Below are positions 13,107-33,871 of a stretch of DNA of 64,000 nt, piece after piece. Under the pieces are notes generated by a model. That model was not told the origin of the DNA and searched no databases. It saw only the letters and a program-made list of their open reading frames with translations. How positions within the stretch are numbered: position 1 is the stretch's first letter; each line of letters starts with the position of its first letter. The stretch spans positions 18,983-82,982 of the forward strand of contig PNOH01000021.1 in the NCBI GenBank assembly GCA_013824715.1, in the 5' to 3' direction. A program made the translations under genes and the position numbers. Source of the DNA: Odoribacter sp. (GTDB taxonomy: Bacteria > Bacteroidota > Bacteroidia > Bacteroidales > Prolixibacteraceae).

Positions 13107-13357
13107 AATATTGGTGCTTACTTCAGTAATTTACGCATAGTAATCCAAATTTAAGAATATTATCCGATCACCATATTATGGATAATAATAATTTTAAGTA
13201 ATTGAAAATTAATTTTTTGTGATTTCGAAACTGAATGGTTTACCGCTGTGTTTCAGTAGCGTAGCACTATTATAAAACAATACAAAATTAGAAGATACTG
13301 ACCTGTAATTTGAAGAAAAAACCTCTAAGACTGATCTAACAGCGTTCCAGAGGTATA

Positions 13358-13448
13358 AAAAAAACGCTTACAATTTTTACCTTGTAAGCGCCTGATTGGT
13401 TGGTCGGTCTGCTGGGATTCGAACCCAGGGCCCGCTGATCAGGAGTCA
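13358..13448 (-). repeat. Distal duplicate of tRNA-Lys 3' part plus terminator (att-like repeat)
   Basis: 91 bp ungapped alignment to 14461-14551 with 6 mismatches; contains CCA end, acceptor 3' strand, T-arm, variable loop, anticodon-arm 3' half, and terminator hairpin. Confidence 0.9.
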
Positions 13449-13567
13449 TATTTTTTGATACGAATCAATGAAAGTTAAAATGCTTTCATGATAGTATTTA
13501 AAGAGAATTAACTTTGCTGATAAAGGTCGTTAAGTGGGGATAGGTAAATAAAAAATCGAATATCAAT

Positions 13568-13598
13568 TTTGAAAATGGTATATATTTATATACCTTTA
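13568..13598 (+). promoter_or_regulatory. Putative promoter of hicAB cassette
   Basis: TTTG (13568-13571)-N19-TACCTTTA (13591-13598), near match to TTTG-N19-TAnnTTTG. Confidence 0.5.
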
Positions 13599-13616
13599 CG
13601 CCATAAAACACAAAAG

Positions 13617-13709
13617 ATGAAACGAGTCATGAGACGTAATCTCACAGTCGCACGATCCCGAGTACTTGGGATGGCGAGTTCCATGTGGCAATTAAAAAAC
13701 AAATTATAA
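13617..13709 (+). CDS. Putative 30-aa basic microprotein upstream of hicA
   Basis: ATG...TAA: MKRVMRRNLTVARSRVLGMASSMWQLKNKL; stop is 4 nt before hicA ATG; downstream of promoter-like sequence. Confidence 0.45.
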   Translation: MKRVMRRNLTVARSRVLGMASSMWQLKNKL

Positions 13710-13713
13710 TCAC

Positions 13714-13896
13714 ATGAAATATTCAGAGTTTCACAGAAAGATTATACGGAATGGGTGGAAATTTAGCCATGCCGATGGAAGCCACTATTTTTATACAAAA
13801 GAAGGAATTCTTTCAGAGCCTGTACCCTATCATGGGAGCAAAGAGTTTTACGAACCGTTAAGAAAGAAAATTGCAAAGAACATGGGGCTTAAATAA
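13714..13896 (+). CDS. hicA: HicA-family mRNA interferase toxin
   Basis: 60 aa: IIRNGWKFSHADGSHYFYTKEG...PVPYHGSKEFYEPLRKKIAKNMGLK; GSH and PVPxHGxKE motifs. Confidence 0.85.
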   Translation: MKYSEFHRKIIRNGWKFSHADGSHYFYTKEGILSEPVPYHGSKEFYEPLRKKIAKNMGLK

Positions 13897-13923
13897 CCAC
13901 ACTCTTTAAAAAAAATTACGAAC

Positions 13924-14334
13924 ATGGAAAAATTAATTATTCAAATCGGAGCAAGTTCCGATCATTTTGGCGGTTTTGCTGTAAATGTTGACGGAATTAA
14001 TGGAGCTGGAAACACTGTTGAAGAATGTAAAGCCAACATATTAGAGGGCTTAAAACTAATGATTAGTTATAGCAGCAAAAGTTATTGCAAAGCTCCTCAG
14101 TGGCTGGTTGACAGTGAATACGAAATTGAATATCAGTACGACATTCAAAGTATCCTAAGTTACTATGCCAATGTATTTACCAAACCTGCCCTTGAAAGGC
14201 TGACAGGTATCAATCAAAAACAACTTCACCACTACGCCACCGGCCTTAAAAAGCCGCGCGAACCCCAACGAAAGAAAATTGAACAGGCGTTGCACCGTCT
14301 GGGCAGTGAGTTAATGTCCGTTCGTTTCGTTTGA
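13924..14334 (+). CDS. hicB: HicB-family antitoxin with C-terminal helix-turn-helix
   Basis: GGFAVNVDGINGAGNTVEECKANILEGLKL followed by LERLTGINQKQLHHYATGLKKPR...IEQALHRLG. Confidence 0.85.
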   Translation: MEKLIIQIGASSDHFGGFAVNVDGINGAGNTVEECKANILEGLKLMISYSSKSYCKAPQWLVDSEYEIEYQYDIQSILSYYANVFTKPALERLTGINQKQLHHYATGLKKPREPQRKKIEQALHRLGSELMSVRFV

Positions 14335-14460
14335 TATGGTTTTGCATTTTTATCAATGGCCACTGCTATAACGAATTAAGCCTGGAAATATGCCCGGCTT
14401 TTTTTAAATTAATCAAAATTGACAAAAACGGGGATTGAGTGTTTCAAATCGTGTATCAAT

Positions 14461-14493
14461 AAAAAAACGCTTACAAATTTCACCTTGTAAGCG
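14461..14493 (-). terminator. Intrinsic terminator of tRNA-Lys
   Basis: Minus strand CGCTTACAA...TTGTAAGCG stem followed by T7. Confidence 0.8.
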
Positions 14494-14503
14494 CCTGATT
14501 GGT

Positions 14504-14579
<76 letters not shown>

Positions 14580-14739
14580 AATCGGCGACAAAAGTAACAG
14601 ATTGTTTGGCATTTTCAAAAATCGGCTCCGAAAATGGCAATTATTTGTTTTGATCAAAGAATTTGATGTTAACTGCCTTTTATGTTATACCGGTTCGGTG
14701 AAATAAGTCTATCTTCGCGCTTCATTTTACAAAAATTGT

Positions 14740-15651
14740 ATGGGGCACTATGGTGGTGAGATTGCTGCGTTGTTGACTGCCGTCTTTTGGACGGTAACAA
14801 GTCTTTCATTCGAATCCGCAGGCAAAAAAATTGGATCGCTTCAGGTCAATCTTATTCGTTTGGTAGTTGCATTTTTCATTTACGGAGTGGTAAATTATTT
14901 CAGGAGAGGCCTGATTTTACCATTGGATGCCAGTGCCGAAAGTTGGTTATGGCTGGCTGCATCAGGAGTGGTTGGCTTTGTTATCGGCGATTTGCTTCTT
15001 TTTCAGTCGTTTGTTGTCATCGGTGCACGAATTGCCATGTTGATCATGGCGCTGACTCCTCCTATTACAGCCTTCATGGGCTGGATGATTTTAGGGGAGG
15101 TTCTGAGTCCCATGAATTGGGTCGGTATGATTGTCACCCTGACCGGAATTTCAATCGTTATCCTGAAGCGCGAAAAACACGAAGATTCTTTATCGAAAAA
15201 GCATAAGATAACGACCAGTTATAGTATCAAAGGAATTTTACTGGCATTTGGGGGAGCCATTGGTCAGGGCGTTGGCCTGGTACTGAGCAAAAAGGGGATG
15301 GGCGAATATGATGCCTTTGCAGCATCGCACATTCGGGTAATAACGGGCATGATTGGATTTGCCATCATTATCCTGTTTACCAAACGATATGGGAAAGTAT
15401 GGAAAGCGCTACATCATAAATCTGCCATGAAACGGGTAGCGTTGGGATCAGTTTTCGGGCCTTTTCTGGGCGTTTCATTTTCGCTGCTCGCCATTCAGCA
15501 CACCCAGGCCGGTATTGCAGCTACTATCATGTCCATTGTTCCTGTACTAATCATTCCTCCTGCAATTTTCCTTTTTCATGAAAAGGTAAACTGGAAGGAA
15601 ATTATTGGAGCCATGATAACTGTTGGGGGTGTGGCCATTTTCTTTTTATAG
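14740..15651 (+). CDS. EamA-family (DMT) transporter
   Basis: 303 aa, 10 hydrophobic segments in two repeats, ALTPPITAFMGWMILGEVLSPMNWVGMIVTLTGI. Confidence 0.88.
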   Translation: MGHYGGEIAALLTAVFWTVTSLSFESAGKKIGSLQVNLIRLVVAFFIYGVVNYFRRGLILPLDASAESWLWLAASGVVGFVIGDLLLFQSFVVIGARIAMLIMALTPPITAFMGWMILGEVLSPMNWVGMIVTLTGISIVILKREKHEDSLSKKHKITTSYSIKGILLAFGGAIGQGVGLVLSKKGMGEYDAFAASHIRVITGMIGFAIIILFTKRYGKVWKALHHKSAMKRVALGSVFGPFLGVSFSLLAIQHTQAGIAATIMSIVPVLIIPPAIFLFHEKVNWKEIIGAMITVGGVAIFFL

Positions 15652-15653
15652 TT

Positions 15654-16532
15654 CTATTGCTTCGTCTTCAGTGGATTTTCTGATTCATCGAAGAATTGCT
15701 TTTGAAGTGCAGGAACGACCTCATCCTTTTTCACATCCTGAATCATCTTTATCAACTGAGTAACCGTTGAATTGATCAGCAATTCGCCTGCTTGTGCATT
15801 TGCTTTGGTACCAATGCCTCCGTAATGGTTAGGATATTTGGCATACCACCATATTCCGGTATAAACATTGGACAGATTCTTCAGCCTCTCCTGATCAATC
15901 CCGGATTGTTGTCCGGCCCGCTCCAGATGTACTACTTCAGGAACTATCGCCTTAATTACCGAAGATTCTTCGTTGCCTGCATGGGCATTAGACGGATCAT
16001 GCTGAGTCAGTTCTTCAGCCTTCTTTGCCACTTCAGGATCGTCGGTTGGCTGAAACCAGTACAAACTGTATGAACGCCGTTCGGACAATTGAGCCATTCC
16101 GAAAAAATTCAGAAAAGCATTGTTTCCGCCATGTCCGTTTACAATAATGATTTTATCGAATCCATTACGGGCAAGTTCGTTCAGTGTTTCCTGAAGGGCC
16201 TTCCAGATTAGTTCCGGACTGTAGGCAATTGTTCCGGGCTGATGTTTGGCTTCGTTAATCTGGCTGAAATAGTACCAGGGATATACAACCGTATATTCTT
16301 TTTCGGCTGCTCGCAAAGCAAATTCACGGGCAATAAAGAGATCGGTTCCCAAGGGAAGATGTGGCCCGTGTTTTTCAAAAACTCCGATAGGCAAAATACA
16401 GGTTTTCGATGATTTTTCGACAGCCTTGATGAAATCGGGGGCAGTCAATTCTTCGAGACGGAATGGAAGCTGCTGAGAATGTGCAGAAAACGCAAATAAA
16501 ATTAAAAGTACAACAGGAAACAGATTTTTCAT
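15654..16532 (-). CDS. Creatininase family protein (secreted)
   Basis: Signal peptide; ILPIGVFEKHGPHLPLGTDLFIA, IIVNGHGGNNAFLN. Confidence 0.88.
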   Translation of the reverse strand: MKNLFPVVLLILFAFSAHSQQLPFRLEELTAPDFIKAVEKSSKTCILPIGVFEKHGPHLPLGTDLFIAREFALRAAEKEYTVVYPWYYFSQINEAKHQPGTIAYSPELIWKALQETLNELARNGFDKIIIVNGHGGNNAFLNFFGMAQLSERRSYSLYWFQPTDDPEVAKKAEELTQHDPSNAHAGNEESSVIKAIVPEVVHLERAGQQSGIDQERLKNLSNVYTGIWWYAKYPNHYGGIGTKANAQAGELLINSTVTQLIKMIQDVKKDEVVPALQKQFFDESENPLKTKQ

Positions 16533-16536
16533 GATT

Positions 16537-18030
16537 TTATTCTGATTTTAATTTTCGTCTTGGATTCATGTACATTTCGTTTGCAAACGGTTTGAAGGCA
16601 TGACTGCCGGTTACTTTTATCAAACCCATCTGTGCTGATTTTAAGGTCTTTCCGGTTATGGCATTACCTTTCATATCAGCCAAAACCACACTGAGCAATG
16701 CTTCGTTTGGATCGCCGAAAGGCAACAGGTTGGCAATATCTTCATCTGCCTCTATGTTGGGGGCCAATCCGTTAACATAGTCAGAATCACCCACCGAATT
16801 GGCATATTTGACTACAATTGGCTGCATGGCGTACTTGTGGTTGGGATTAACATTCCCCTTTTCGTCCCAGTCTTTAATAGTCATAGAGCCTGTATATTTT
16901 CCTACCGTGTTGATTCCTACAACGGTCACTTTCATATATGGTTTCAAACCGTTGATTAATAATTCACTGGCCGAAGCGGTATTGTCTGAAACAATGATAT
17001 AGATTTTCTTAAGATTGAGCGTCTGAATTGGAGTAGCCGGATTCTTATCAGTTTTTGCAATGGTAGTAACAAAATAATCTTTGAGGGAATTGGCTCCGTA
17101 TTGTTGCACGAAATATGCTTCCAAGCCAGCATTGTACTGGCTTTGGGAAAATACTTTTGAATCATCGGTTCCATAAAGCATACTGGCCAGATAAACGCTG
17201 CTTTGCACCGAACCGCCCCCGTTGTATCGCAAATCGAGCACCATCTGGTTTATCGCGGCATCTTTGAATTTCTTAAATACATTGTTTAACTGAATATCAA
17301 AGTCGGCAGTAAAAGCATTATAAACCAGGTACCCGATTTTTTGATTATTAAATTGGAATACGGTATCTTTTTGAATGGGGTTTTCCTGCATTTCGATGGC
17401 TGTCATCGTAATTGTTTTACTGCTTGGCGATATGGTATTGTTTACGATGGTAGCAAAACCCATGGTGTAGGTTTTGTTGGTAAAAAGCAAAGTCCGGTAG
17501 TTTGAAACGGTCAATTGCTGATCGTTGATTTTAAGAAAAACATCGCCACGTTTCACTCCTGCTTTTTCTGCCGGTGAACCTTTATATACATACCTGACAA
17601 AACCAAATACGTTATCTGAAGTTCCTATTCTTCCAAGCATAAAGTCGTAACCCATTGTTTCCGAAATGCCGGCAATCCAATCATCAATGGTTTTGGAGTT
17701 ATCAACCAAAAATGACCATTTGTCAATTTCCTTGTATTTATACAGCAAACTGGCGAATAGTTTTTGAGGATCGGAATACCTGTTCAGGAATACGTTTAAA
17801 GTATCCGTATTTTTATACTTTGCCGATGTCAGTGCAGGTATCTGTTCGTTCCATAGGTAGTAGTCGCGCAGGCCTTTAAAAACAAAAGTATTAACCTCGG
17901 AGGCCTTAGGAATAATAACAGGCACTTCCTCTTTGCGGCAGCCCGAAATCCATATTCCTGTAATCAGAACAAGTGGAATGAAGTATTTAAATGCTAGATT
18001 TTTCATATTATTTGATAAAAAATTGTACAA
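16537..18030 (-). CDS. S41 family C-terminal processing peptidase, lipoprotein
   Basis: Lipobox ISGC; PDZ region GSPAEKAGVKRGDVFLKIN; DLRYNGGGSVQSSVYLA; SDNTASASELLINGLKPY. Confidence 0.88.
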   Translation of the reverse strand: MYNFLSNNMKNLAFKYFIPLVLITGIWISGCRKEEVPVIIPKASEVNTFVFKGLRDYYLWNEQIPALTSAKYKNTDTLNVFLNRYSDPQKLFASLLYKYKEIDKWSFLVDNSKTIDDWIAGISETMGYDFMLGRIGTSDNVFGFVRYVYKGSPAEKAGVKRGDVFLKINDQQLTVSNYRTLLFTNKTYTMGFATIVNNTISPSSKTITMTAIEMQENPIQKDTVFQFNNQKIGYLVYNAFTADFDIQLNNVFKKFKDAAINQMVLDLRYNGGGSVQSSVYLASMLYGTDDSKVFSQSQYNAGLEAYFVQQYGANSLKDYFVTTIAKTDKNPATPIQTLNLKKIYIIVSDNTASASELLINGLKPYMKVTVVGINTVGKYTGSMTIKDWDEKGNVNPNHKYAMQPIVVKYANSVGDSDYVNGLAPNIEADEDIANLLPFGDPNEALLSVVLADMKGNAITGKTLKSAQMGLIKVTGSHAFKPFANEMYMNPRRKLKSE

Positions 18031-18050
18031 TTATTCAGAAAATTAAAAGG

Positions 18051-19331
18051 TCAAAGTAAATAAAAGATTATAGACATAAATAATCCTGCGGCAATAAGGA
18101 TAGAAAAATTTAGAATTAAATTTCTTCTGATATTTTTACTGCCCAACGAAATGGCATAAATCATTTTTAACAGGTTGTTACTGTTGGTGGCATTAAATAT
18201 TGCGATGGCAATAGTTGTTTGCCCGATTCCTGCTTTCTGCTGCAGAAGGTTGAGTAAAAATGGATCAATATCTGTAACTCCAACTACAAAGGCTAATTGG
18301 GTAACTCCGGCACTTCCGTATCTTTTCAGTACAAAATCGGTAACCACAGCGAAAACGACAAATAATATTCCAAAAATAGCTGCAGTCCTGAATTCCAATG
18401 GATTTTTGCCTGAAGCCTGATCCACTTCCGGAGTAGTTTCTGAAAGATTTGCGGCATTTCTCCCGGAAAAAAAGCGTGAAAGCATATAAGAAACCACGAA
18501 CATGGCAATAAAAGGAATTGATAGTTGTACTGCTACCGGTCTGTTAAAAATGAAAGCCAGGATCAAAATCCGCAAATACATCATTCCGTTGGCAATCATT
18601 ATGGCCGAAACTGTTGACGAACCTGACAATCCCTTTTTTTCCTGCCGGGCTAAAATTACCGTGGTGGCTGTACTGCTGTAAATACCTCCTAAAACTCCGG
18701 TTAGAAATATTCCTGAATTGGGAAAAACAAATTTCTTCAGTAAATAGCTTGCATAAGAAATACTGGAAACAACGACAATAGCCAACCACAGGTGATACGC
18801 TGAAATCGGAATTTGATCTGAAATATTTTCTTCAGGAAGTAACGGTAAAACAATACCAGCCAAGGCAATGAATTTGGCCAGAGTAATGAACTCTTCCTCC
18901 GATGCCTTTTGGGACAGGGATATAAAATGATTTTTTAATTCGGTAACCATCAGCAACACTACAATAAACGAAAGAATAAGCCACCCCGGTTGTGTAAAAA
19001 CCATAATGGGAATGCAATAGGTGAGAAGCGCCAGTATTGTGCTGGTTAACCCATATTTGCCATTTTGCCCGATTTTATGAAAATATTGAATTCCCAGCAA
19101 AATGCCGATCAGTACAAACCCGATCAGGAATGGAATATATTTTACCGGGTCGGCGATAAAAAGCACGTAAGCGAGCAATCCTATGAATGTAAAAGTACGA
19201 TCGGTCCCAAACAAAAGGTCGTCGTTCTCGTTGATGTGGTGCCGCCGCTGTTCAAGTCCGATGAGCAACGAAAAAATAAGCACCAAAATAAATTTCACAA
19301 ATTCATCCGGTATGTAATTCAGGATTTGCAT
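18051..19331 (-). CDS. MgtC/SapB-family membrane protein with DUF4010 region
   Basis: FVKFILVLIFSLLIGLEQRRH...GTDRTFTFIGLLAYVLF; multiple TM helices. Confidence 0.82.
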   Translation of the reverse strand: MQILNYIPDEFVKFILVLIFSLLIGLEQRRHHINENDDLLFGTDRTFTFIGLLAYVLFIADPVKYIPFLIGFVLIGILLGIQYFHKIGQNGKYGLTSTILALLTYCIPIMVFTQPGWLILSFIVVLLMVTELKNHFISLSQKASEEEFITLAKFIALAGIVLPLLPEENISDQIPISAYHLWLAIVVVSSISYASYLLKKFVFPNSGIFLTGVLGGIYSSTATTVILARQEKKGLSGSSTVSAIMIANGMMYLRILILAFIFNRPVAVQLSIPFIAMFVVSYMLSRFFSGRNAANLSETTPEVDQASGKNPLEFRTAAIFGILFVVFAVVTDFVLKRYGSAGVTQLAFVVGVTDIDPFLLNLLQQKAGIGQTTIAIAIFNATNSNNLLKMIYAISLGSKNIRRNLILNFSILIAAGLFMSIIFYLL

Positions 19332-19420
19332 TTGATTCAGATGATTGAGAACAAAGATAATCTTTCAAAATCGCTAAAACAAAACACTTGCACTTCATTT
19401 CAAGTTGCTGAAATTTGTTC

Positions 19421-19810
19421 CTATTCCATATCGCTGAGGTGCAAATCTAGCGCTTTTACCGAAATTTGAATTTCGCGGATGGAAATAGCAAGCGACAGAA
19501 TAAGCAACACCAGGGCGATGCCAAACAGGATTTCAGCCCAGATCATAAAATGTACATAGATCAGAAACATACAAATTACACAAAGGAGCAGGCTCGATAT
19601 TCCCAAAACCTGCATGGTCTGCGTTAGACGAAGCCGTTTTCTTAAATTCTGAATTTGCCCAAGCAGAATGAAATTCGGGTTTTTCTTAAAACTGGTATGC
19701 AGGCTCCGAACCACAGAAGCATAAGCCAGAAACCGGTTCGTATAGGCAAGTGTAATAAGCGATACTGCTGAAAACAACAAGGCGGGTGTGGTCAAGGTCA
19801 ATTGCTCCAT
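19421..19810 (-). CDS. DUF2721-like membrane protein
   Basis: 129 aa, TM helices, ALLFSAVSLITLAYTNRFLAYASVVRSLH pattern. Confidence 0.65.
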   Translation of the reverse strand: MEQLTLTTPALLFSAVSLITLAYTNRFLAYASVVRSLHTSFKKNPNFILLGQIQNLRKRLRLTQTMQVLGISSLLLCVICMFLIYVHFMIWAEILFGIALVLLILSLAISIREIQISVKALDLHLSDME

Positions 19811-19840
19811 GATAAAAGTTTTAAGTGCCTAAAGTGAAAA

Positions 19841-19934
19841 CTATTTACTATTTAATCATTTACAATTTACTATTATGGATTGCCGTTGATTTGCCCCAAA
19901 ATAGTAAATAGTAAATAGTCCAATCGTAAATCGA
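19841..19934. repeat. Imperfect hairpin of TTTAC-iterons, GCCCCAAAA loop
   Basis: ctatttactatttaatcatttacaatttactatt...ttgccccaaaatagtaaatagtaaatagtccaatcgtaaat. Confidence 0.65.
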
Positions 19935-19939
19935 TTCTA

Positions 19940-21031
19940 TTATTTCAATAAACCAGATATCGTCACTCCCAGTTTTTCTTCACGAAGGTTTCTCCCAATA
20001 ATTTTACCGGTTTTATCGAGCAGTAAATTGGCTGGTATTGAATTCACCGCATATAAGGCAGCAGCTTCGTTTTTCCAACCTTTCAGATCAGAAACGTGGG
20101 GCCAGGTAAGCTGATCGTCGGCAATGGCTTTCAACCATTTATCCTTACTGGTATCGAGCGATACACCAAATACGCCAAAACCTTTAGCTTTGTTACTGTT
20201 ATAAACAGCTACCACGTTAGGATTTTCGCGGCGGCACGGACCACACCATGATGCCCAGAAATCAATCAGTGTATATTCGTTTTTTGAATAGATATCACTC
20301 AGTTTAACCGGATTTCCTTCAGCATCGTTCATGGTAAAATCAGGGGCTGTTTGACCGATAGCAACTATTTTAAGCTTGGCAACACGATCTTTCATAGAAA
20401 CAACCGTCGGGACCGAATCGAGTTTGGCATCAAATCCTGCCAGATAACCTTCCAGAACATCGGCTTCCATATCGTAATATACGCGTCCTAAAAGATATGG
20501 CGAAACAAACGAAGCCGGATTTGCTTTGATATATTCTTTTTGCTGAGTATCAATATCGTTGAAGATATTTTCGGCCAGAACCATCAAACTGTCTGACTGG
20601 TTATTCGCACCACTTTTCCCTGCTTCCTTTGATTGTTTAAAAAATGCCATACCCAGTTCGTCCATTTCGTCAAGTTTATCCTGAAGGGTCTGGAATTCAT
20701 TATGAACGATTGAACCTGAAACTTTTGCTGCAGACAACGAATCAATTGAACCGGCAATCGAAATATTGGAGTTTTCAATAAAAAACATCAACTTGTCTTT
20801 TTTGGAGCTAATGCCCAAATAATATACTTCAGGATTTTTAACAGCACCTTTAAATTGACATTCGCCGTTTTTAAACTCAGTTGAATCGAGTTTCACCCAT
20901 TCGCCTTTAATCCGTTGGGTAAGAAATGCTTTTCCTTCGGCATTGGCCAGTTTTACTTTTACCTGGTAGGAAGGTTTTTGGGTACAGGCAAAAAATCCAA
21001 ATAGCAATGCAATCAGTATGAAATTTTTCAT
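19940..21031 (-). CDS. TlpA-family thiol:disulfide oxidoreductase with N-terminal DUF4369
   Basis: LIDFWASWCGPCRRENPNVVAVY; lipoprotein signal LFGFFACTQ. Confidence 0.9.
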   Translation of the reverse strand: MKNFILIALLFGFFACTQKPSYQVKVKLANAEGKAFLTQRIKGEWVKLDSTEFKNGECQFKGAVKNPEVYYLGISSKKDKLMFFIENSNISIAGSIDSLSAAKVSGSIVHNEFQTLQDKLDEMDELGMAFFKQSKEAGKSGANNQSDSLMVLAENIFNDIDTQQKEYIKANPASFVSPYLLGRVYYDMEADVLEGYLAGFDAKLDSVPTVVSMKDRVAKLKIVAIGQTAPDFTMNDAEGNPVKLSDIYSKNEYTLIDFWASWCGPCRRENPNVVAVYNSNKAKGFGVFGVSLDTSKDKWLKAIADDQLTWPHVSDLKGWKNEAAALYAVNSIPANLLLDKTGKIIGRNLREEKLGVTISGLLK

Positions 21032-21103
21032 AGTTGTATTTTTATTAGTTGAAAAGTATTTGATTAATCATTAGCAAAATAAAAGAAATTAATTGAACAA
21101 AAA

Positions 21104-21127
21104 AACCGGGACGAAGATCCCGGTTTT
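21104..21127 (-). terminator. Intrinsic terminator of asnB
   Basis: aaaaaccggg-acgaaga-tcccggtttt; T-run on minus-strand transcript. Confidence 0.7.
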
Positions 21128-21165
21128 CCTGTTTCAATATAAGCGATTTAAAAACAAATTAACGA

Positions 21166-22839: not shown

Positions 22840-23204
22840 AGTATTTTGGGTTTAAATATTAACTTTATTGAAATATAATTTGCGTTCAAAAATAGTCATT
22901 TTGATTTATTTCAGAAAGAATAACTGACATATTTCTTATTTCTATTCAGTTTGCTATCAAATAAATCAATTCTGGTTCATTTTTGTAGAATTGATGAATT
23001 TTGATTTTTCGAATGCCTCCCTTATTTTGCTATCAACAAATCTGTAAAAATCCAACTATATTTTCTTTACCCCCTCATTTCAACAACAAAACAACTAAAA
23101 CAACAATCTGTTTTCCCAGCATACCCATTCAGGAGAATATTGTTGCACGATTGTTACGAAAATGTAAAAAGGCTGCCAAAACTGACTGCCTTTCCCCATA
23201 TTTT

Positions 23205-23554: not shown

Positions 23555-23572
23555 ATATTTTTTCAATCAAGG

Positions 23573-24673: not shown

Positions 24674-24758
24674 TCCACTTTATCTTTTGATATATGGTGT
24701 AAAGATAAACGATTCAACCAACTAAAAAGCAATTATTATCAACACAATGAGAGAGATT

Positions 24759-24780
24759 ATATTCCGGAATATTACTTTTG
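24759..24780 (+). promoter_or_regulatory. 14-bp perfect palindrome abutting a -7 element, putative operator/promoter
   Basis: ATATTCCGGAATAT (24759-24772) directly next to TACTTTTG (24773-24780), about 20 nt upstream of the Nudix-like regulator ATG. Confidence 0.55.
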
Positions 24781-24799
24781 CGTTCAAAGCTTATGCTCC

Positions 24800-25549: not shown

Positions 25550-25553
25550 TAAA

Positions 25554-25645
25554 AGTCAGAAGATGGAAGTTAGAAGTCAGAAGACGGAAGTTAGAAGTCA
25601 GAAGACGGAAGTCAGAAGTTGGAAGGCGGAAGTTAGAAGTTAGAA
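25554..25645. repeat. Degenerate tandem repeat (GAAGTCAGAAGACGGAAGTTA)n
   Basis: agtcagaagatggaagttagaagtcagaagacggaagttagaagtcagaagacggaag... Confidence 0.8.
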
Positions 25646-25654
25646 GAAAACTAT

Positions 25655-25742
25655 ATAATTGTCAAATTGCCAAATTGTTTAATTGTCGAATCTTCGATTT
25701 GCCAAATTGTTTCATTGTCGAATCTTCGAATTGTCAAATTAA
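25655..25742. repeat. Degenerate tandem repeat (AATTGTC(A/G)AAT..)n
   Basis: attgtcaaattgccaaattgtttaattgtcgaatcttcgatttgccaaattgtttcattgtcgaatcttcgaattgtcaaatt. Confidence 0.8.
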
Positions 25743-25787
25743 ACCATTTCTCCCTATTCCTGTCTTACCATCAACGATTGTTTTTGT

Positions 25788-26348
25788 ATGACCAACGACC
25801 AGCAAATATTGGATAGTCTGAAAGACCCTTCAACCAGGGAACTGGCTTTCAGGCATCTGATTTCCAAATACAAGGAAAGGCTTTACTGGCACATCCGAAA
25901 AATCGTGTTAAACCATGATGATACCGACGATGTCCTTCAAAATACTTTTATCAAGATATGGAACGGAATTGGCTCTTTCAGGGCCGAATCGAGTCTGTTT
26001 ACCTGGCTGTACCGCATTGCTACCAACGAATCAATCACTTTTCTGAATCAGCGAAAGCGCAAAGCAATGTCGGGTTTGAATGATGAAAACCAATTTTTAA
26101 TTGATAACCTGGAAAGTGACTCTTATTTTGATGGCGACGAATGGCAAATGATTTTACAAAAGGCTATTGCAACCCTGCCCGAAAAACAAAGGCTGGTATT
26201 CAACCTGAAGTACTTTGAGGAAATCAAATATGAAGAAATGTCGCAAATTCTGGAGACATCGGTGGGCGCCCTGAAAGCATCGTACCACCACGCGGTGAAA
26301 AAAGTTGAAGAATACGTTAAGTCGCACGAAACAAGAATAGAACCTTAA
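25788..26348 (+). CDS. ECF RNA polymerase sigma factor (sigma-70 family)
   Basis: DDTDDVLQNTFIKIWNGIGSFRAESSLFTWLYRIATNESITFLNQRKRK; LPEKQRLVFNLKYFEEIKYEEMSQILETSVGALKASYHHAVKKV. Confidence 0.92.
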   Translation: MTNDQQILDSLKDPSTRELAFRHLISKYKERLYWHIRKIVLNHDDTDDVLQNTFIKIWNGIGSFRAESSLFTWLYRIATNESITFLNQRKRKAMSGLNDENQFLIDNLESDSYFDGDEWQMILQKAIATLPEKQRLVFNLKYFEEIKYEEMSQILETSVGALKASYHHAVKKVEEYVKSHETRIEP

Positions 26349-26422
26349 TGGATGAAAATTAAACAGGTTGAAAATTAAACTATTTGAAATTAAAGATGTC
26401 AAAGCCATATAATTAGAAGATC

Positions 26423-26878
26423 ATGTACGAAGAAGAAAATATAGAACCCGATTTTATGAAACGGCCCCCAAAAAATCCGTTTCGAACTCCTGATTCCTAT
26501 TTTGAGTCACTCGAAGACCGGATTATGGGGAATATTAAAGACCAGACGAAGAAAAGTTCTTCAACCAGAATAATACGGTTCCTGAAACCTGCGCTGGGTA
26601 TAGCAGCCAGCATTACCCTGGTTTATATGCTGGCTTATTATCCAATTAATAAGTTCCTGCTGAAAGACACTGTCCAAACAGAACTAACAGATACTACCGG
26701 CACCGACTTGCTAAATGATTATTCCATCAATATAGCTTCAATTGATGATAATTCATTGATAAATGCCATTTTTACTGATGAGACAAACATTTTCGCTGAA
26801 ACTAATCCGGATGAATTTCTGGCTTATCTTTCTACCGGCTTGAATGATGTTGAAATTTATTCTGAAATTCAAAATTAA
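26423..26878 (+). CDS. Single-TM protein, putative membrane partner (anti-sigma-like) of the upstream ECF sigma factor
   Basis: 151 aa with one TM (ALGIAASITLVYMLAYYPI) immediately downstream of the sigma gene. Confidence 0.6.
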   Translation: MYEEENIEPDFMKRPPKNPFRTPDSYFESLEDRIMGNIKDQTKKSSSTRIIRFLKPALGIAASITLVYMLAYYPINKFLLKDTVQTELTDTTGTDLLNDYSINIASIDDNSLINAIFTDETNIFAETNPDEFLAYLSTGLNDVEIYSEIQN

Positions 26879-26884
26879 TTAATA

Positions 26885-27343
26885 ATGAAGAAGTTATTCC
26901 TGATAAGCATTTTGTCGATCTTTACGTTTACCGTATTGGTTGCACAGGAAAGAAGAGGCCCAAGTCCTGAAATGTTTGAAAAAATAAAGGCTGAAAAAAT
27001 ATCCTTTTTTACCAGTAAGTTAGACCTGACACCTTCTGAAGCACAAACTTTCTGGCCGGTTTACAACGAATTTGAAAAGAAAAGATTTGATATTCAGCGG
27101 CAGATTCATGAATTTGAACGTATGCCTGATGAAAAATTCACCAATCTTTCAGAATCTGAAATCGAAAAAATGACCAGTAATTACATTGGTTCATTCGAAA
27201 AAGAAGCGCTGCTTTTGAAAGAATACAATTCGCAATTTCTGAAAGTACTTCCAAAGAAAAAGGTATTGATGATGTACCGGACCGAAAATGAATTCAGGTC
27301 ACATTTGATCAGGGAATTCAGGAAGAATCAAAAGAAAGAATAA
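26885..27343 (+). CDS. Secreted Spy/CpxP-like periplasmic protein
   Basis: Signal peptide; LDLTPSEAQTFWPVYNEFEKKRFDIQRQ LTxxQ-like repeat region. Confidence 0.65.
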   Translation: MKKLFLISILSIFTFTVLVAQERRGPSPEMFEKIKAEKISFFTSKLDLTPSEAQTFWPVYNEFEKKRFDIQRQIHEFERMPDEKFTNLSESEIEKMTSNYIGSFEKEALLLKEYNSQFLKVLPKKKVLMMYRTENEFRSHLIREFRKNQKKE

Positions 27344-27345
27344 AC

Positions 27346-27369
27346 AAAAGCCGGATTTTCCGGCTTTTA
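27346..27369. terminator. Bidirectional intrinsic terminator between Spy-like gene and hisS
   Basis: aaaagccggattttccggctttta. Confidence 0.75.
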
Positions 27370-28734
27370 TTATTCTGAAAGTATTTTGATCAATTCCTGT
27401 GGATCAACCAACTGTTGTTCGCCGGAAAGCATGTTTTTTAAATTGATTTTGCCCTGCGCCAGTTCGTTTTCGCCGACAATGGCCACAAATGGTATTTTTT
27501 TGTTGTTGGCCCAGGCCATTTGCTTGGCCATTTTGCTCTTATCGGGAAAAATTTCGGCATTGATTCCGGCCCTGCGCACAGCCGCTAAAACGGGCAGACA
27601 AAAAGCTTCTTCAGCCGGGCCAAAATTCACAAACATTAATTTAGTCGAATCAACCGTTTCGGAAGGGAACAGTTGCAATTGGGTCAGTACATCATAAATC
27701 CGGTCGGCGCCAAATGAAATTCCAACTCCGGAAACACCCGGCATTCCAAAGTTTCCGGTCAGGTCGTCGTAACGGCCACCGCCTGCGATGCTGCCCATTG
27801 TAGAATCTTTGGCTTTCACTTCGAAAATTGCTCCGGTATAATAATTCAATCCACGGGCAAGTGTCAAATCCAGTTCAACTTCGGTTGTCAATTGCAAAGT
27901 TCCCAAATAGGCAAATAAAGTTCGTACTTCAGCAATTCCTTTCGCTCCAATTTCGGATTGACCAATTGCCGATGTCAACTGTGCCAGTTTTTCTGAAACC
28001 GACCCCGACAAATGCAAAATCGGCTGCAACTTATCAACAGCATTTTGCGGAATGCCTTTTTCGAGCAATTCTTCATTCACTTTTTCCAGACCGATTTTCT
28101 CCAGCTTATCTATGGCAATGGTAATATCCACAATCCGGTCTTTTTCGCCAATTACCTCAGCAATTCCGGCGAGAATTTTTCGGTTGTTGATCTTCACCAC
28201 GGTATTAATCTTCAGCCTGGCAAAAATCTGGTCAACAATCTGCACCAACTCCATTTCGTTGAGCAGCGAATCACTTCCCACAATATCCACATCGCACTGA
28301 TAAAACTCTCGGTAGCGGCCTTTTTGCGGACGGTCGGCCCGCCAAACAGGCTGAATCTGATAGCGTTTAAAGGGAAATGAAATGTCATTTCTATACTGAA
28401 CCACATATCTGGCAAAAGGCACAGTCAGGTCATATCGCAAACCCTTTTCCGATATTCTATTGGTGAGCCGGATGCTGTTTCTTTCAAGCAATTCCTGTTC
28501 GGTTGGAGCCGCAGCAAAATCGCCTGAATTCAGAATTTTGAACAGCAATTTATCACCTTCTTCTCCGTATTTTCCCATCAAAGTCGAAAGGTTTTCCATT
28601 GCCGGAGTTTCAATGGGTTGAAATCCGTACAATCGAAAAATACTTTTGATGGTGTCGAAAATATAGTTCCGGTTGGTCATTTCAGCCGGTGAAAAATCAC
28701 GTGTTCCTTTTGGAATCGAAGGTTTCTGTGCCAT
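27370..28734 (-). CDS. hisS: Histidyl-tRNA synthetase
   Basis: [61 protein letters not shown]. Confidence 0.96.
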
Positions 28735-28790
28735 GGTTGTTTATTTCGGAAGGGGCAAAATTAAGGAAATTCAGGAAAAACCGGCCATAT

Positions 28791-29633
28791 TTATTGGTTA
28801 TCAATCCCTTTATTCTTTTTAGGGGCCAGTTGCTTTGCATTTTGTTTGGTTACTACTCTCTTTCCTGTTGTTTTCTCCAATTGCAAACGGGCAGCTTTGG
28901 CCACATTGCCACCTTTTTTGGCTACAGTTTTATTTTCTCCGAATGTCTTTGGCTTTTTATCTTTCGAAATCTCGGTGGTTGATGCTTCGGCCAGCATATT
29001 CAGTACCAGTTCCAGATTGGTCATGTGATCGCGAAGGTTTTCTTTCTTCAAGTCTTTGTACGATTTGTACTGTTTGGTGGTTAACCCACTCCATGCCTTG
29101 GTAATCTCATCGGTCAGGATTGCAAATTCCTGTCCTTTCTTTACGCCACGATCTTCCCATTCATCGGTCAGTTCCTTGCGAATTTCAATACTTTTCAGCC
29201 TCTGGTTGATCCATTCTTTGGAGTAACCTTTGCGTAAATAAGTTTCCATCAGCCGGTCGATACCTATTTCCGGGTCCTCAATTTCGTCAATCCGCTCGCG
29301 CCCAACCTGCGCCAACCACATTTTAAACGGCTCTGCTTTGGGCGAAGGGATGCTCTGGATTAAACGGAACAACTGTTCGGTATCAGCCACATCGGTCAAG
29401 CGCATTTTGCCATCGGCGGCAAGCATTTTCAAACCGTTACAATTTGTAACGGTTTCATTACCTTCGTCTAATAGCCTCTTCTTTAGAACCCTCCAATAGA
29501 TCTGTGGGTTTTCACTTCCTGTGAGAACTGCTATTACGTCAACAATCGAGAAATACCATTTCTCCTGCTCGCTGTCCCATAACGAGCGAACCTGTTTTTG
29601 TTCAAATAGTTGAATGGCTGATTCTTTGGTCAT
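28791..29633 (-). CDS. BRO-N family / DinD-like protein
   Basis: VRSLWDSEQEKWYFSIVDVIAVLTGSENPQIYWRVLKKRL; MTNLELVLNMLAEASTTEISK. Confidence 0.8.
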   Translation of the reverse strand: MTKESAIQLFEQKQVRSLWDSEQEKWYFSIVDVIAVLTGSENPQIYWRVLKKRLLDEGNETVTNCNGLKMLAADGKMRLTDVADTEQLFRLIQSIPSPKAEPFKMWLAQVGRERIDEIEDPEIGIDRLMETYLRKGYSKEWINQRLKSIEIRKELTDEWEDRGVKKGQEFAILTDEITKAWSGLTTKQYKSYKDLKKENLRDHMTNLELVLNMLAEASTTEISKDKKPKTFGENKTVAKKGGNVAKAARLQLEKTTGKRVVTKQNAKQLAPKKNKGIDNQ

Positions 29634-29938
29634 ATTTGGGAAGTTAATTTTTATTTAGATGTTGTGTTTCATTGATAAAACCTTACTTTGTTTATCATCA
29701 ACCAGGGGACAAATTGTACCCCAGTTGCTTTTTATTCACCATTCTCGTAAGTATTCATTCCAAACCGACCGTATTTGCTTGCTTTCAAAAAGCTTAATAT
29801 TGCTCATGCTTTCATTATCTGAAGTGAACCTCAAACGAAGAGTTGCATTTCAAATACAAATTTCCTGTCAACGAAGTAACCAAGCCCGACTGGGTAGTTT
29901 GCTGTTATTCCAGAGTGTCTTAATTTTTCTTTAGAAAC

Positions 29939-30487
29939 TTACCAATTTTCATTATTAGTTTTAGTTTGTCCTTTAACTGCCAGTTCTAATGAACTAAGTA
30001 ATTCTGTCAACTGAGAATCTATTTTGTCTTTGGTCTCTTGATATTTCTTACCTGATTTTAGCTCACCACCTTTTTTATAAATAATTTCTAAAGATGTACT
30101 CGTAAATGGAGATGATTGCGCAACTTGTTTTAAATCTGTAGCAATAAATCGTAATTTACCATCCTTTATGTCCAGTTGTATTTTATAGGAAAGATCAAAA
30201 TAAAAACCCATGATAGGGCCAAGAGCAGATTTAGAAATTCCGTTAATACGTATCATCTTATTCTCAATCTTTGCCTGAATTACACTTTCTGTATTATTAA
30301 AGGTATAGGAAACCCAATCAATGGAAGAATTATAAATCTGAGCAGCAGATTTATCCTTAAAAACAATTATAGACTCTCCCGTCAGAGTGCCATTCTTATC
30401 AAGGTTTGTTTTAATACCTTCTGCTTCTTGTCCTTGTGAAGAAAAGTACCCGCATAAAAGAAATAATAATAAAAATGTAATTTTCAT
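29939..30487 (-). CDS. DUF4468 domain-containing secreted protein
   Basis: Signal peptide; IIVFKDKSAAQIYNSSIDWVSYTFNN...VIQAKIENKMIRINGIS. Confidence 0.65.
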   Translation of the reverse strand: MKITFLLLFLLCGYFSSQGQEAEGIKTNLDKNGTLTGESIIVFKDKSAAQIYNSSIDWVSYTFNNTESVIQAKIENKMIRINGISKSALGPIMGFYFDLSYKIQLDIKDGKLRFIATDLKQVAQSSPFTSTSLEIIYKKGGELKSGKKYQETKDKIDSQLTELLSSLELAVKGQTKTNNENW

Positions 30488-30533
30488 GAATATAGGTTTA
30501 TCTGGTGAATAATTTAAACTATGTAGTGGTGTC

Positions 30534-31082
30534 TTAAATTATTGGTATGTCAATACAAAATATCACCTCAATTATTTTAAAAAATGAATAAATTATGACT
30601 AAAATGCTCATTATCTGAATAATCGAATTTTCCGCAAGTCTGTTTATTATACTTTTAGGCTTGGGGCTTTTTGACAAAGAATGACTATCAACTACAAGCT
30701 TTATATCTTGTATTTCTTGTCGGTTTAAATTTTCTAGATTTTCTTCTTTTTCTTGTTTCTGCTGTAATTCCTGAAACTCTTGCAGTTTCTGAAGTTCATG
30801 AAATTTAAAATACTCTGTCAAAGAACCGTGATCATTGATAATCTGTCTGGCAGATTGAGTAATTTTCAACCTGTCAATATTCTCCTTAGTGAAATAAATA
30901 TTTTCGTAAAGTGCTATGAAATTATTTTTCTCATCATAATTGAACTCAATATTAGTCAACTGCTTATAATCAGTCAAAATGAGTCTAAACATGATTCCTG
31001 ACGGTTTCTCGTTGCAAAGCTTAACTAATAAAAAGTCCAGTAATTCTAAATGCTTTTTGTCCATAAATATAGGTTTAGTCAT
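30534..31082 (-). CDS. Hypothetical protein with C-terminal TM segment
   Basis: 182-aa ORF; Glu/Gln-rich middle, IIQIMSILVIIYSFFKIIEVIFCI C-terminus. Confidence 0.55.
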   Translation of the reverse strand: MTKPIFMDKKHLELLDFLLVKLCNEKPSGIMFRLILTDYKQLTNIEFNYDEKNNFIALYENIYFTKENIDRLKITQSARQIINDHGSLTEYFKFHELQKLQEFQELQQKQEKEENLENLNRQEIQDIKLVVDSHSLSKSPKPKSIINRLAENSIIQIMSILVIIYSFFKIIEVIFCIDIPII

Positions 31083-31334
31083 GTCAATGGCGACTTTTTG
31101 GCATTAGGCAACAGTTGTACACCATCCAATTGCAGGTATTTTTTCAATATGCGCAATTGTAAAAAAATTCTGTTTGATAAAAACTCCTTAATGTTTCTTA
31201 CCAAATTTAACCCATTCACCCCACTAATCAAAGCCACTTTACAAGAAGTTATAAACATTAATTGCAACCCAAAACCCTGAAAATAAGAATGTCCGAAGCG
31301 ATTACCCGCTCCGGACTATGTATTTGATTTGTAA

Positions 31335-31366
31335 ACTCCGGGGGCGACTCAAAGTCGCCCCGGAGT
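31335..31366. terminator. Strong GC-rich hairpin, putative terminator
   Basis: ACTCCGGGGGCGACT-CAA-AGTCGCCCCGGAGT, 14 bp with one bulge. Confidence 0.6.
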
Positions 31367-31372
31367 AATAGA

Positions 31373-31435
31373 CTACTCTAATACCAGCTTTTTGTATTTC
31401 ACCCGTTGTGGATCAACATCACCCATGCGTTTCAT
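31373..31435 (-). pseudogene. Duplicate 3' tail of ettA (MKRMGDVDPQRVKYKKLVLE*)
   Basis: Same C-terminal peptide as ettA KRMGDVGPQRVKYKKLV*, with mostly third-codon-position differences; start ATG overlaps MNT stop (ATGA). Confidence 0.85.
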
Positions 31436-31737
31436 TTTATTTCAATACCCGTAGTCTGGATTTCATAAGCAAATGGATTTTGTATATTAAAATCGCCTTC
31501 CCAAATCGGATGTGGTTCGATTCTTAAATCAACTGTTCTTCTCAGCCGCATTAATTGCATCTGAACGGAAAAGAAATCATCCATCTTACCAATCACAATA
31601 GCAATATCAATATCACTATCTTTATGCTCATTCCCTTTGGCATAAGAACCAAACAAAAAAGCTTTCTTTAACTCCATATTCTCGGGAATCCTCTGAATAT
31701 ATAGCTTTGCAGTATCTATAATTGATTGATCAACCAT
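31432..31737 (-). CDS. MNT-type minimal nucleotidyltransferase (putative antitoxin)
   Basis: LFGSYAKGNEHKDSDIDIAIVIG = GSx10DxD motif. Confidence 0.88.
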   Translation of the reverse strand: MVDQSIIDTAKLYIQRIPENMELKKAFLFGSYAKGNEHKDSDIDIAIVIGKMDDFFSVQMQLMRLRRTVDLRIEPHPIWEGDFNIQNPFAYEIQTTGIEIK

Positions 31738-32135
31738 TGTCTTAGCGTTTCAATTTTAGAAATCCATTCGTTAGAAAAGTCAACTGTGCAAAGTTTTTGA
31801 AAATTTTGTTTATAGCCGTCATATCTGGCATTTATATTAAAAGTTGTTATTTCATCCAGCCATTCATCATAGCCCTCTGGTAACTCAACATCAATCTTCT
31901 TCGCCAATCTAAGTAAATCATGAGAAAACGCCGGGTGTTTTTGCAATCTTTTAACATACAGTGCCTTTAGCAACTTTTCGATTACTAAATGTCCTAAAAA
32001 CAAAGCCCATGAGTACTCTTTGGTTTTTATTAAATTCTGCATTGACGCGTAATTCTGTTCTGAAGATTCACGCCAATGATTAATTATAGAATCAATATTT
32101 CGAATTTCTTCTTCCATAATGAACCAAAAATACAA
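31716..32135 (-). CDS. HEPN domain protein (partner of MNT); start probably at MEEEIRN (32117)
   Basis: SWALFLGHLVIEKLLKALYVKRLQKHPAFSHDLLRLAKK...FNINARYDGYKQNF; overlaps MNT by 22 nt. Confidence 0.85.
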   Translation of the reverse strand: MYFWFIMEEEIRNIDSIINHWRESSEQNYASMQNLIKTKEYSWALFLGHLVIEKLLKALYVKRLQKHPAFSHDLLRLAKKIDVELPEGYDEWLDEITTFNINARYDGYKQNFQKLCTVDFSNEWISKIETLRQWLINQL

Positions 32136-32188
32136 AATTCAACCATAGAAATCTACATGCAATGATTTTTAACTGGGCTGTACTAACC

Positions 32189-33871
32189 TTACACCAGCTT
32201 TTTGTATTTCACTCGCTGCGGGCCAACATCGCCCATACGTTTTTTGCGGTTTTCTTCGTAGTCGGTAAATCCGCCTTCGAAGAACACCACTTTCGAATCT
32301 CCTTCAAAAGCCAGAATGTGCGTGGCAATGCGGTCGAGGAACCAGCGGTCGTGCGAAATAACCACGGCGCAACCGGCAAAGTTGTCCAAACCTTCTTCCA
32401 GCGCACGCAAAGTATTGATGTCAATATCGTTGGTCGGCTCATCAAGTAACAGTACGTTTCCTTCTTCTTTCAGGGCCAAAGCCAGGTGCAGACGGTTCTT
32501 TTCTCCACCCGAAAGATATCCGCATTTCTTTTCCTGATCGGCGCCTCCAAAATTAAACCTCGAAACATAGGCTCGGGCATTCAGTTGTTTCCCGCCCACT
32601 GAAATGAGGTCGCTTCCTCCGGTTATCACCTGAAATACGGTTTTCTCCGGATCAATCGTCTTGTGAGTTTGGTCAACGTATGCAATTTTCACTGTTTCGC
32701 CCACTTCAAAAGTACCTTTATTGGCTTTTTCCAAACCCATAATCAACTTAAACAGTGTGGTTTTACCGGCGCCATTCGGGCCGATAACGCCAACAATTCC
32801 GTTTGGAGGCAACACAAAATTCAGGTCTTCGAACAACAGGCGGTCGCCGTAACCTTTGGCGACATCTGTAGCAGAAATAACCTTCTCGCCTAAACGTGGG
32901 CCATTCGGGATAAATATTTCCAGCTTTTCTTCCTTCGTTTTCACATCTTCATTAACCATACGGTCGTAGGCTCCCATGCGGGCCTTCGATTTTGCCTGAC
33001 GGGCTTTGGGTGCCATCCGGATCCACTCCAACTCGCGTTCAAGCGATTTTCGCCGCTTGGATGCAACCTTTTCTTCCTGCTCCATCCGTTTCGATTTCTG
33101 TTCGAGCCAGGATGTATAATTTCCTTTCCATGGTATTCCTTCGCCACGGTCGAGTTCCAGAATCCATCCAGCCACATTGTCGAGGAAATAGCGGTCGTGA
33201 GTAATACAAATTACGGTACCCTTGTATTGCTGCAGATGCATTTCGAGCCACTGGATTGATTCTGCGTCCAAATGGTTGGTTGGTTCATCGAGAAGTAAAA
33301 CATCCGGTTCTTTCAGCAGCAAACGGCACAAGGCAACCCGGCGGCGTTCACCTCCTGAAAGCTCTCCGACAAGCTGTTCGTCAGGTGGGCACTGTAAAGC
33401 ATCCATGGCACGTTCGAGTTTGGTATCGAGGTTCCAGGCATCAAAGTGATCAATTTTATCCTGAAGGACGGCCTGTTCAGCGATCATTTTATCCATGACA
33501 TCAGGATTTTCATATACTTCAGGATCACCAAATTTCAGGTTGATATCTTCGTAGGCTTTCAGAACATCAACAATTTCCTGAGCCCCTTCCTGAACAATTT
33601 CTTTTACAGTCTTAGTTTCGTCTAATTTTGGATCTTGTTCCAGATAACCAACCGTATAACCGGGAGCAAAAACCAATTCGCCCTGAAACGACCCTTCGAG
33701 TCCGGCAATAATTTTGAGCAGCGTAGATTTTCCTGATCCGTTCAATCCGATAATGCCAATTTTAGCGCCCAGAAAAAACGACAATGAAATATCTTTCAGG
33801 ACTTGCTTTTGAGGAGGATAGGTTTTACTTACCCGATACATCGAGAAAATAATCTTTTTATCGTCGGCCAT
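32189..33871 (-). CDS. ettA: Energy-dependent translational throttle protein EttA (ABC-F ATPase)
   Basis: Two ABC domains, GLNGSGKSTLLKIIAGLE and GPNGAGKTTLFKLIMGLE, LSGGERRRVALCRLLL, PtIM linker region. Confidence 0.93.
   Translation of the reverse strand: MADDKKIIFSMYRVSKTYPPQKQVLKDISLSFFLGAKIGIIGLNGSGKSTLLKIIAGLEGSFQGELVFAPGYTVGYLEQDPKLDETKTVKEIVQEGAQEIVDVLKAYEDINLKFGDPEVYENPDVMDKMIAEQAVLQDKIDHFDAWNLDTKLERAMDALQCPPDEQLVGELSGGERRRVALCRLLLKEPDVLLLDEPTNHLDAESIQWLEMHLQQYKGTVICITHDRYFLDNVAGWILELDRGEGIPWKGNYTSWLEQKSKRMEQEEKVASKRRKSLERELEWIRMAPKARQAKSKARMGAYDRMVNEDVKTKEEKLEIFIPNGPRLGEKVISATDVAKGYGDRLLFEDLNFVLPPNGIVGVIGPNGAGKTTLFKLIMGLEKANKGTFEVGETVKIAYVDQTHKTIDPEKTVFQVITGGSDLISVGGKQLNARAYVSRFNFGGADQEKKCGYLSGGEKNRLHLALALKEEGNVLLLDEPTNDIDINTLRALEEGLDNFAGCAVVISHDRWFLDRIATHILAFEGDSKVVFFEGGFTDYEENRKKRMGDVGPQRVKYKKLV

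Follow-up and report, generated by a model that had tools for sequence, protein, structure and literature searches.

We describe here a segment behind the ettA gene in which toxin–antitoxin (TA) genes lie between two copies of the ettA 3' end, found in a 64,000-nucleotide stretch of DNA (the window) from contig 21 of a 4.6-Mb Bacteroidales genome of the family Prolixibacteraceae (98.9% complete). On sequence comparison we think it rather probable that this HEPN–MNT segment is a recombinase-free addiction cassette which entered by one-sided homologous recombination through a gene end that it carried. This reading builds on empty and filled sites, a second in-frame gene end, mostly synonymous differences between the two ends and variable junctions, as well as on several payloads at single targets, several targets for single payloads, and an ettA cassette that has no integrase. 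A second repeat-flanked TA segment in the window, hicAB at a tRNA-Lys gene, probably differs from it in origin, and the initial annotation of this DNA, which had ascribed both to one recurring route, is confirmed in what it observed and partly supported in how it interpreted this.

The ettA segment consists of the following features:

31200–31371, minus strand: native ettA downstream region with terminator
31372–31432, minus strand: distal copy of the ettA 3' end, in frame and with the native terminator next to it, which we read as the displaced original end
31432–31737, minus strand: MNT (minimal nucleotidyltransferase) gene, putative antitoxin, with a readable GSX10DXD motif (PF18765 (Polbeta) 1.9e-12; PF01909 (NTP_transf_2) 2e-9)
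31716–32135, minus strand: HEPN-domain protein gene, putative toxin, with an ATG start near 32117 (PF05168 6.2e-17)
32182–32242, minus strand: proximal copy of the ettA 3' end, inside the intact gene and extending 7 bp beyond the stop
32189–33871, minus strand: ettA, intact, encoding an energy-dependent translational throttle-type ABC-F ATPase

The two ettA ends form a 61-bp repeat of 82% identity (E 6e-13 when the gene tail is compared with its own downstream flank), and the eight coding differences between them fall at codon positions 1, 2 and 3 as 0/1/7, leaving six synonymous and one non-synonymous codons, while the distal copy translates as KRMGDVDPQRVKYKKLVLE followed by a stop. This bears out, for ettA, the earlier description of the copy as foreign-looking but constrained. 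The adjacent HEPN and MNT genes are HepT–MntA-like, with PF05168 and PF18765/PF01909 matches over the gathering score (the NCBIfam MntA match of 4.9e-12 is under cut-off, and MNT also matches the PADLOC candidate family PDC-S09); they are all that is encoded here and the list of open reading frames (ORFs) has no integrase in the segment, in agreement with the integrase-less content first noted. The EttA protein shares 93–95% identity with those of genus mates and 75–79% across the Bacteroidales.

We compared this genome (G000) with 22 genomes of the same genus (G001–G022) and with other genomes of the family. The ettA site is empty in G004, G009, G011, G012 and G021, where the sequence that follows the distal copy in the window stands directly after the ettA stop; the distal copy therefore sits in its native context, and what was inserted is the proximal ettA end together with the TA genes. 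This MNT insert is also found in the sister genome G010, where the HEPN gene is truncated and a distal ettA copy is present as well. Unrelated payloads are found at the same site in G015, where a DUF4160–DUF2442 pair is followed by a second ettA end and terminator (the payload was read from translation, and DUF4160 was also identified by family), and in G020, where an MNT–HEPN pair in reversed gene order (also read from translation) has no second ettA end, which fits an illegitimate junction beyond the stop. The junctions are at about -51 in G000 and -72 in G015, and the fixed crossover of a tyrosine-recombinase island is not seen. The proximal copy of G000 differs from the distal copy of G010 at 4 of 48 positions and the other pairings differ at 7–10, which is suggestive of a copy swap over a length too short to claim one. 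No further convincing ettA tail copy was found at 80 ettA loci of Bacteroidales, examined with flanks of up to 10 kb, and a weak downstream match in Bacteroides ihuae was not accepted as a second gene end after direct reading. We note separately that the window encodes a BRO-N protein (28791–29633) with weak likeness to DNA-damage-inducible protein D, and that by eye a similar-looking ORF begins behind ettA in G009.

The arrangement recurs in the genus. Reading the flanks of 90 loci of HEPN, HicA and DUF4160 genes from 23 genomes showed TA genes enclosed by gene-tail repeats behind a nuoB-like gene (in three species), fabD, serS, lysC, an FMN reductase gene, an EamA-like transporter gene and a DUF5009-like gene, and there are about 11 target genes in total, several unrelated payloads being found at single targets (nuoB-like, fabD, serS, lysC, FMN reductase and mfd were named by NCBIfam, with nuoB-like and FMN reductase under cut-offs, and the remaining targets by eye). 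In most cases the cassette lies between an intact 3' end and a second copy that is largely in frame. The ettA case and these targets fit the recurrent class of TA genes behind an intact 3' end that had been proposed from the window. The FMN reductase gene is followed by HEPN–MNT in G013 and by DUF4160–DUF2442 in G010, and in G009 two successive cassettes behind the nuoB-like gene are bracketed by three copies of its tail. The most varied target is a gene for an 827-aa protein (contig C3 in G000), which is followed by a 156+54-aa gene pair in G000, the larger gene of that pair in G007, a Fic protein gene in G013 and a 177+68-aa gene pair in G015, and is empty in G022; a second in-frame gene end comes after each payload, and the junctions lie at -151, -110 and -156 relative to the stop. 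Because the junctions are variable and the targets unrelated, a site-specific recombinase is unlikely for this group of protein-coding genes. The 156+54-aa pair (C3:107298–107950, L307) and the 177+68-aa pair (L353:753–1485, with a relative at L193:2271–2795) are both in TA-type positions, have no Pfam or PADLOC match, and are candidate new addiction modules.

A scan of 1.26 Mb of the G000 genome for direct repeats (at least 40 bp, at least 75% identity, spacing 250–5000 bp) returned only 24 pairs, so that both window repeats, which are present as first described, are beyond chance. Four pairs are repeats inside proteins and the rest fall in 14 loci, 11 of which carry TA, restriction–modification (RM), nuclease, candidate-defence or TA-like genes. 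Six are TA loci: a DUF4160–DUF2442 pair, HEPN–MNT behind mfd, HEPN–MNT behind ettA, hicAB at tRNA-Lys, two successive ParE-type pairs behind a leuS-like gene, and a cluster of YoeB, ParE, PIN and MNT–HEPN genes. The other five hold the 156+54-aa pair, a GmrSD/HNH gene with an EcoRI-type methylase gene, YhcG, GxxExxY, and AAA_14–DUF4143 (YhcG and AAA_14–DUF4143 correspond to the PADLOC candidate families PDC-S02 and PDC-S01). The three unexplained loci may be unrelated (two on C2 with sensor-kinase-like or unnamed genes, and one on C5 with an epimerase gene). Among the genes of 60–350 aa in the scanned sequence, 24 of 693 are repeat-flanked, all of them in cassettes or spurious ORFs within these.

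Three of these loci have a structure of their own. The 4.6-kb cluster of MNT–HEPN, YoeB, ParE-like and PIN genes (C5:75293–79946, L319) has several families of 59–129-bp direct repeats between its genes and is cassette-array-like; the two tandem ParE-type pairs behind the leuS-like gene (C4:127799–129330, L315) come with three post-stop repeat copies, as successive insertions at one site; and the AAA_14–DUF4143 gene (C10:14608–16167, L328) has the mirror-image geometry, the repeats on its two sides being copies of the 5' and not of the 3' end of a YitT-like gene.

Two checks akin to those that the initial annotation had proposed, on enrichment and on the kind of difference between copies, support its class within the genus. 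With one fixed flanking-repeat test applied to all loci, 24 of 78 TA loci in the genus were flanked by direct repeats compared to none of 23 loci of GNAT acetyltransferases, a control of roughly similar size from the same genomes (Fisher p 0.0014), and 11 of the 78 were of the gene-tail type. Among PDDEXK_3 (GxxExxY) loci, 4 of 26 were repeat-flanked, one being of gene-tail type, as were 9 of 28 DUF4160 loci across the phylum, mostly by cassette-to-cassette repeats in TA arrays and none of gene-tail type, and 6 of 17 HEPN loci in other genera of the family (two of the six were flagged as tail type but are not counted, the target ORFs being short or doubtful). Over 16 tail pairs, the differences between copies are distributed over codon positions 1, 2 and 3 as 58/34/137 (binomial p 4e-16, which is indicative as some targets recur and the pairs are partly non-independent), with 118 synonymous and 71 non-synonymous codons. 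It should be noted that the G015 ettA row entered these totals out of phase, with the gene end off by two bases; counted in phase it is 4/3/8, and would strengthen the third-position bias. Many distal copies read as complete C-termini, including those of serS, the three 827-aa cases and ettA, and copies at 80–85% identity differ about as much as the genes of species in the genus do. As the differences are mainly at third codon positions, the copies look like two orthologous ends and not like a gene end and its decayed duplicate, and the simplest reading is that one gene end was imported with the cassette.

The segment at tRNA-Lys comprises:

13358–13448, minus strand: distal copy of the tRNA-Lys 3' half and terminator, a probable attachment-site remnant
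13449–13457, minus strand: element-side arm adjoining the tRNA copy, TATTTTTTG on the plus strand and CAAAAAATA in tRNA orientation
13617–13719, plus strand: leader upstream of hicA, with hairpin arms that covary
13714–13896, plus strand: hicA, toxin gene (PF07927 5.2e-8)
13924–14334, plus strand: HicB-like antitoxin gene, with a C-terminal helix-turn-helix-like region
14461–14503, minus strand: terminator hairpin downstream of tRNA-Lys, present in the distal copy too
14504–14579, minus strand: tRNA-Lys, anticodon ctt, intact (ARAGORN; Rfam tRNA 74 bits)

The repeat (13358–13448 and 14461–14551) is 91 bp long with 93% identity and a spacing of 1103 bp, and as claimed earlier the target gene is intact, as is ettA. 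Between the copies are hicA, the HicB-like ORF and the leader, and no integrase ORF was found between 13449 and 14460. The HicA domain is clear, and its partner is called HicB-like from its position and a reading of the sequence because it has no Pfam or NCBIfam match. Only part of the claim of constraint applies to this copy: the T-stem has a compensated change (CTGGG/CCCAG), as in the true tRNA-Lys of G010, but the anticodon triplet is CCT, followed by G.

Copies of the tRNA-Lys 3' half are also found with a Phage_integrase gene nearby in prophage-like elements of 14–17 kb in G016 and G028 and in integrase-bearing contigs of G020 and G004. These are 46–47 bp long, near-identical, and end at the same boundary base as the window copy, and the nine bases past this boundary in the window (CAAAAAATA) are those of G020 and G004, unlike those of G016 and G028. 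We take the tRNA-Lys 3' half, on this sequence evidence, to be the attachment site of tyrosine-recombinase elements in these four genomes, and as both the boundary base and the arm match integrase-bearing elements, hicAB appears to be flanked by attachment sites. The segment has the 3'-half direct repeat and boundary of a tyrosine-recombinase island and lacks an integrase gene of its own, and is most likely a decayed or trans-mobilised element of this kind whose integrase is now gone. A shared route for the two window cases is not upheld by this, and one of the two, tRNA-Lys/hicAB, is most likely the kind of conventional-integrase residue that the initial annotation had said would count against its class. 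The simplest phage-attachment reading leaves unexplained the terminator included in the window copy and the T-stem variant common to the true G010 tRNA. Remnants of hicAB with HicB-like orthologues are found behind tRNA-Lys in G010 and G007, in neither of which was a distal tRNA-Lys copy found (the G007 contig ends shortly after).

Several further observations concern this site. G010 lacks a 286-bp stretch of the window (13217–13502) which includes the distal tRNA copy; the breakpoint shows a short AATTAA match, and the difference is either a deletion in G010 or an insertion in the window genome. In G013, G009 and G011 (L043:7623–7963, L041:8042–8176 and L042:8418–8464), one to three tandem tRNA-like units lie upstream of tRNA-Lys, in each of which the 5' third of tRNA-Lys is intact and is followed by a hairpin (CATCCCGATTTTATCGGGAGG) and then by a T-arm region that has decayed; being located 5' of tRNA-Lys, they were rejected as the source of the distal copy. 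The leader of about 100 nt (ATGAAACGAGC...GAGTTCCATCTGGCAATTAAAAAACAAATTATA..CAGATGAAA) is found upstream of hicA and at least six other genes of the same genome (L002–L004 and L006–L008), its closing hairpin covaries (CATGTG/CACATG, CATCTG/CAGATG and CATCCG/CGGATG), it has no Rfam match, and it is possibly an undescribed cis-regulatory RNA.

For the ettA-type cassettes, the donor DNA would have been a circle or linear fragment in which the ettA 3' end of another lineage was directly followed by TA genes. A crossover within the gene end would join the recipient ettA to the incoming end and the TA genes, and would displace the final ~50 bases of the recipient gene to a position downstream, still ahead of the native terminator; a circle might have recombined in the Campbell manner, or linear DNA by homology-facilitated illegitimate recombination. 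Direct repeats of 50–190 bp would make such inserts deletable, and because of this only payloads that punish their loss (TA, RM, and perhaps some nuclease and ATPase genes) would be expected to persist. That the end came from another lineage, how it recombined, and why the payloads are biased in this way are inferences of ours. More tentatively, and with slightly less than even confidence, we propose that there is a recombinase-free class of mobile addiction cassettes that spreads between species via the 3' end of an adjacent conserved gene, with the duplicated end acting as both mobility handle and loss trap.

A number of results weigh against this account. By the fixed test 54 of the 78 TA loci have no flanking repeat, which means that either the route is not the only one for TA loci or its traces have been lost, and 4 of 25 HicA loci have flanking repeats, none of them of gene-tail type. 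The EamA and, in part, lysC pairs show no clear bias towards third positions, or their distal frame is broken. Distance to the nearest relative does not tell which ettA or 827-aa gene tail is foreign, as all species are about equally distant and both tails are at the usual between-species distance. Finally, the 827-aa gene is divergent beyond the repeat as well, so that a donor in the form of a small circle is indistinguishable there from a longer linear one.

Many islands use gene 3' ends, and each end could be the attachment site of a tyrosine-recombinase element reduced to its TA genes or of a cassette moved in trans. At tRNA-Lys, with Phage_integrase-type genes by the 46-bp tRNA halves of four genomes, such integration is probably what happened, but as a general explanation we consider it unlikely: there are about 11 unrelated targets, repeat lengths range over 50–190 bp, junctions vary within one target, and the 3' flanks of ettA in genus mates showed no integrase on reading, in which not every ORF was scanned against families. 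Of the two routes suggested by the initial annotation, recombination through a carried homologous tail is to be preferred over site-specific integration in trans because the targets are unrelated and the junctions at one target depend on the payload. Alternatively, the gene end might have been duplicated locally when a repair event took up the TA genes, and the copy might then have decayed. Local duplication would account for copies beside the gene without a donor, and a few pairs are about 95% identical (mfd, the nuoB-like gene in G006 and the 827-aa gene in G013), yet it is hard to reconcile with the third-position and synonymous bias over 16 pairs and the largely intact distal frames, and the 1.26 Mb scanned hold no gene tail with a copy nearer than 250 bp, i.e. 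no payload-free one; we regard it as improbable.

We give equally little credence to homing-like spread, in which a cassette nuclease would cut the gene end of the empty allele and repair would copy in the cassette with a recoded, resistant end. The same architecture and synonymous recoding are seen in the mobile ORFs (mORFs) of Allomyces and Glomus mitochondrial DNA (PMC3630166), and some of our payloads are nuclease-like (YhcG, GxxExxY and GmrSD/HNH), but most are RNase or nucleotidyltransferase TA genes (HEPN, MNT, ParE and HicA) for which site-directed DNA cutting is not known, and one payload family can be found behind many unrelated genes. Artefacts in the assembly of metagenome bins are very improbable, for while some contigs end at or near repeats (G022:C49 and G009:C53), the same inserts occur in separate genomes (G000/G010, G000/G007 and G001/G021) and deep within long contigs (G011:C56 and G013:C42).

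Comparable systems are known. Integrase-less elements flanked by attachment sites include tRNA-gene islands and CIME-type remnants, and here too there are direct repeats of which one completes a gene; this fits tRNA-Lys/hicAB, but the ettA-type cases differ in their variable junctions and many targets, and no related integrase element was found for them. The minimal mobile elements of naturally transformable bacteria are gene sets swapped between conserved genes by homologous recombination without mobility genes, and resemble our cassettes in placing different gene sets between conserved genes, but a duplicated gene end is outside their definition. The closest known architecture would seem to be that of the fungal mORFs with a C-terminal duplication, found in Allomyces atp6 and in Glomus atp6, atp9, cox2 and nad3 (PMC3630166): like these, the ettA segment has a gene core, a second, orthologous in-frame 3' end that is largely synonymous, a small ORF that in mORFs is selfish, a displaced native 3' end and no integrase. 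The mORF payload encodes an endonuclease of the LAGLIDADG or GIY-YIG type that is considered to mobilise itself (PMC3630166), whereas the ettA segment has HEPN and MNT and no homing endonuclease, and the present cassettes carry TA, RM or other genes at many targets in bacterial chromosomes. Homology-facilitated illegitimate recombination has been proposed for displaced effector–immunity modules of the type VI secretion system (PMC5361080), where, as in Rhs C-terminal displacement, a toxin–immunity module is inserted by one-sided homology after a conserved part of the gene, and the previous 3' part remains downstream of it; there the conserved gene carries the toxin and the displaced end belongs to another toxin or immunity gene, whereas our targets are unrelated conserved genes with orthologous ends. 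The pdif modules of Acinetobacter plasmids are also short cassettes, some with TA genes, that lack a recombinase of their own, but are flanked by XerCD sites and moved by XerCD (PMC6449649), while the flanks here are gene ends. We found no description of a TA-cassette class of this kind in the open-access literature, which leaves most subscription papers beyond the scope of this statement.

It has long been asked how chromosomal TA modules come to lie, and stay, between genes when they have neither transposase nor integrase. The traces described here, in cassettes with no recombinase gene and gene-end copies of 50–190 bases, suggest that recombination through the 3' ends of neighbouring genes lets putative addictive genes spread and persist, offering a concrete route and a testable rule for persistence. 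Genomes can be scanned for mobile addiction modules, including new ones, by looking for a payload with an intact gene end on one side and, on the other, a second end that differs from it synonymously; the traces also warn that a conserved gene can have a 3' end of foreign origin. If this is correct, then position between gene-tail repeats would detect addiction modules not yet known as such, for example GxxExxY, YhcG, AAA_14–DUF4143 and the 156+54-aa and 177+68-aa pairs.

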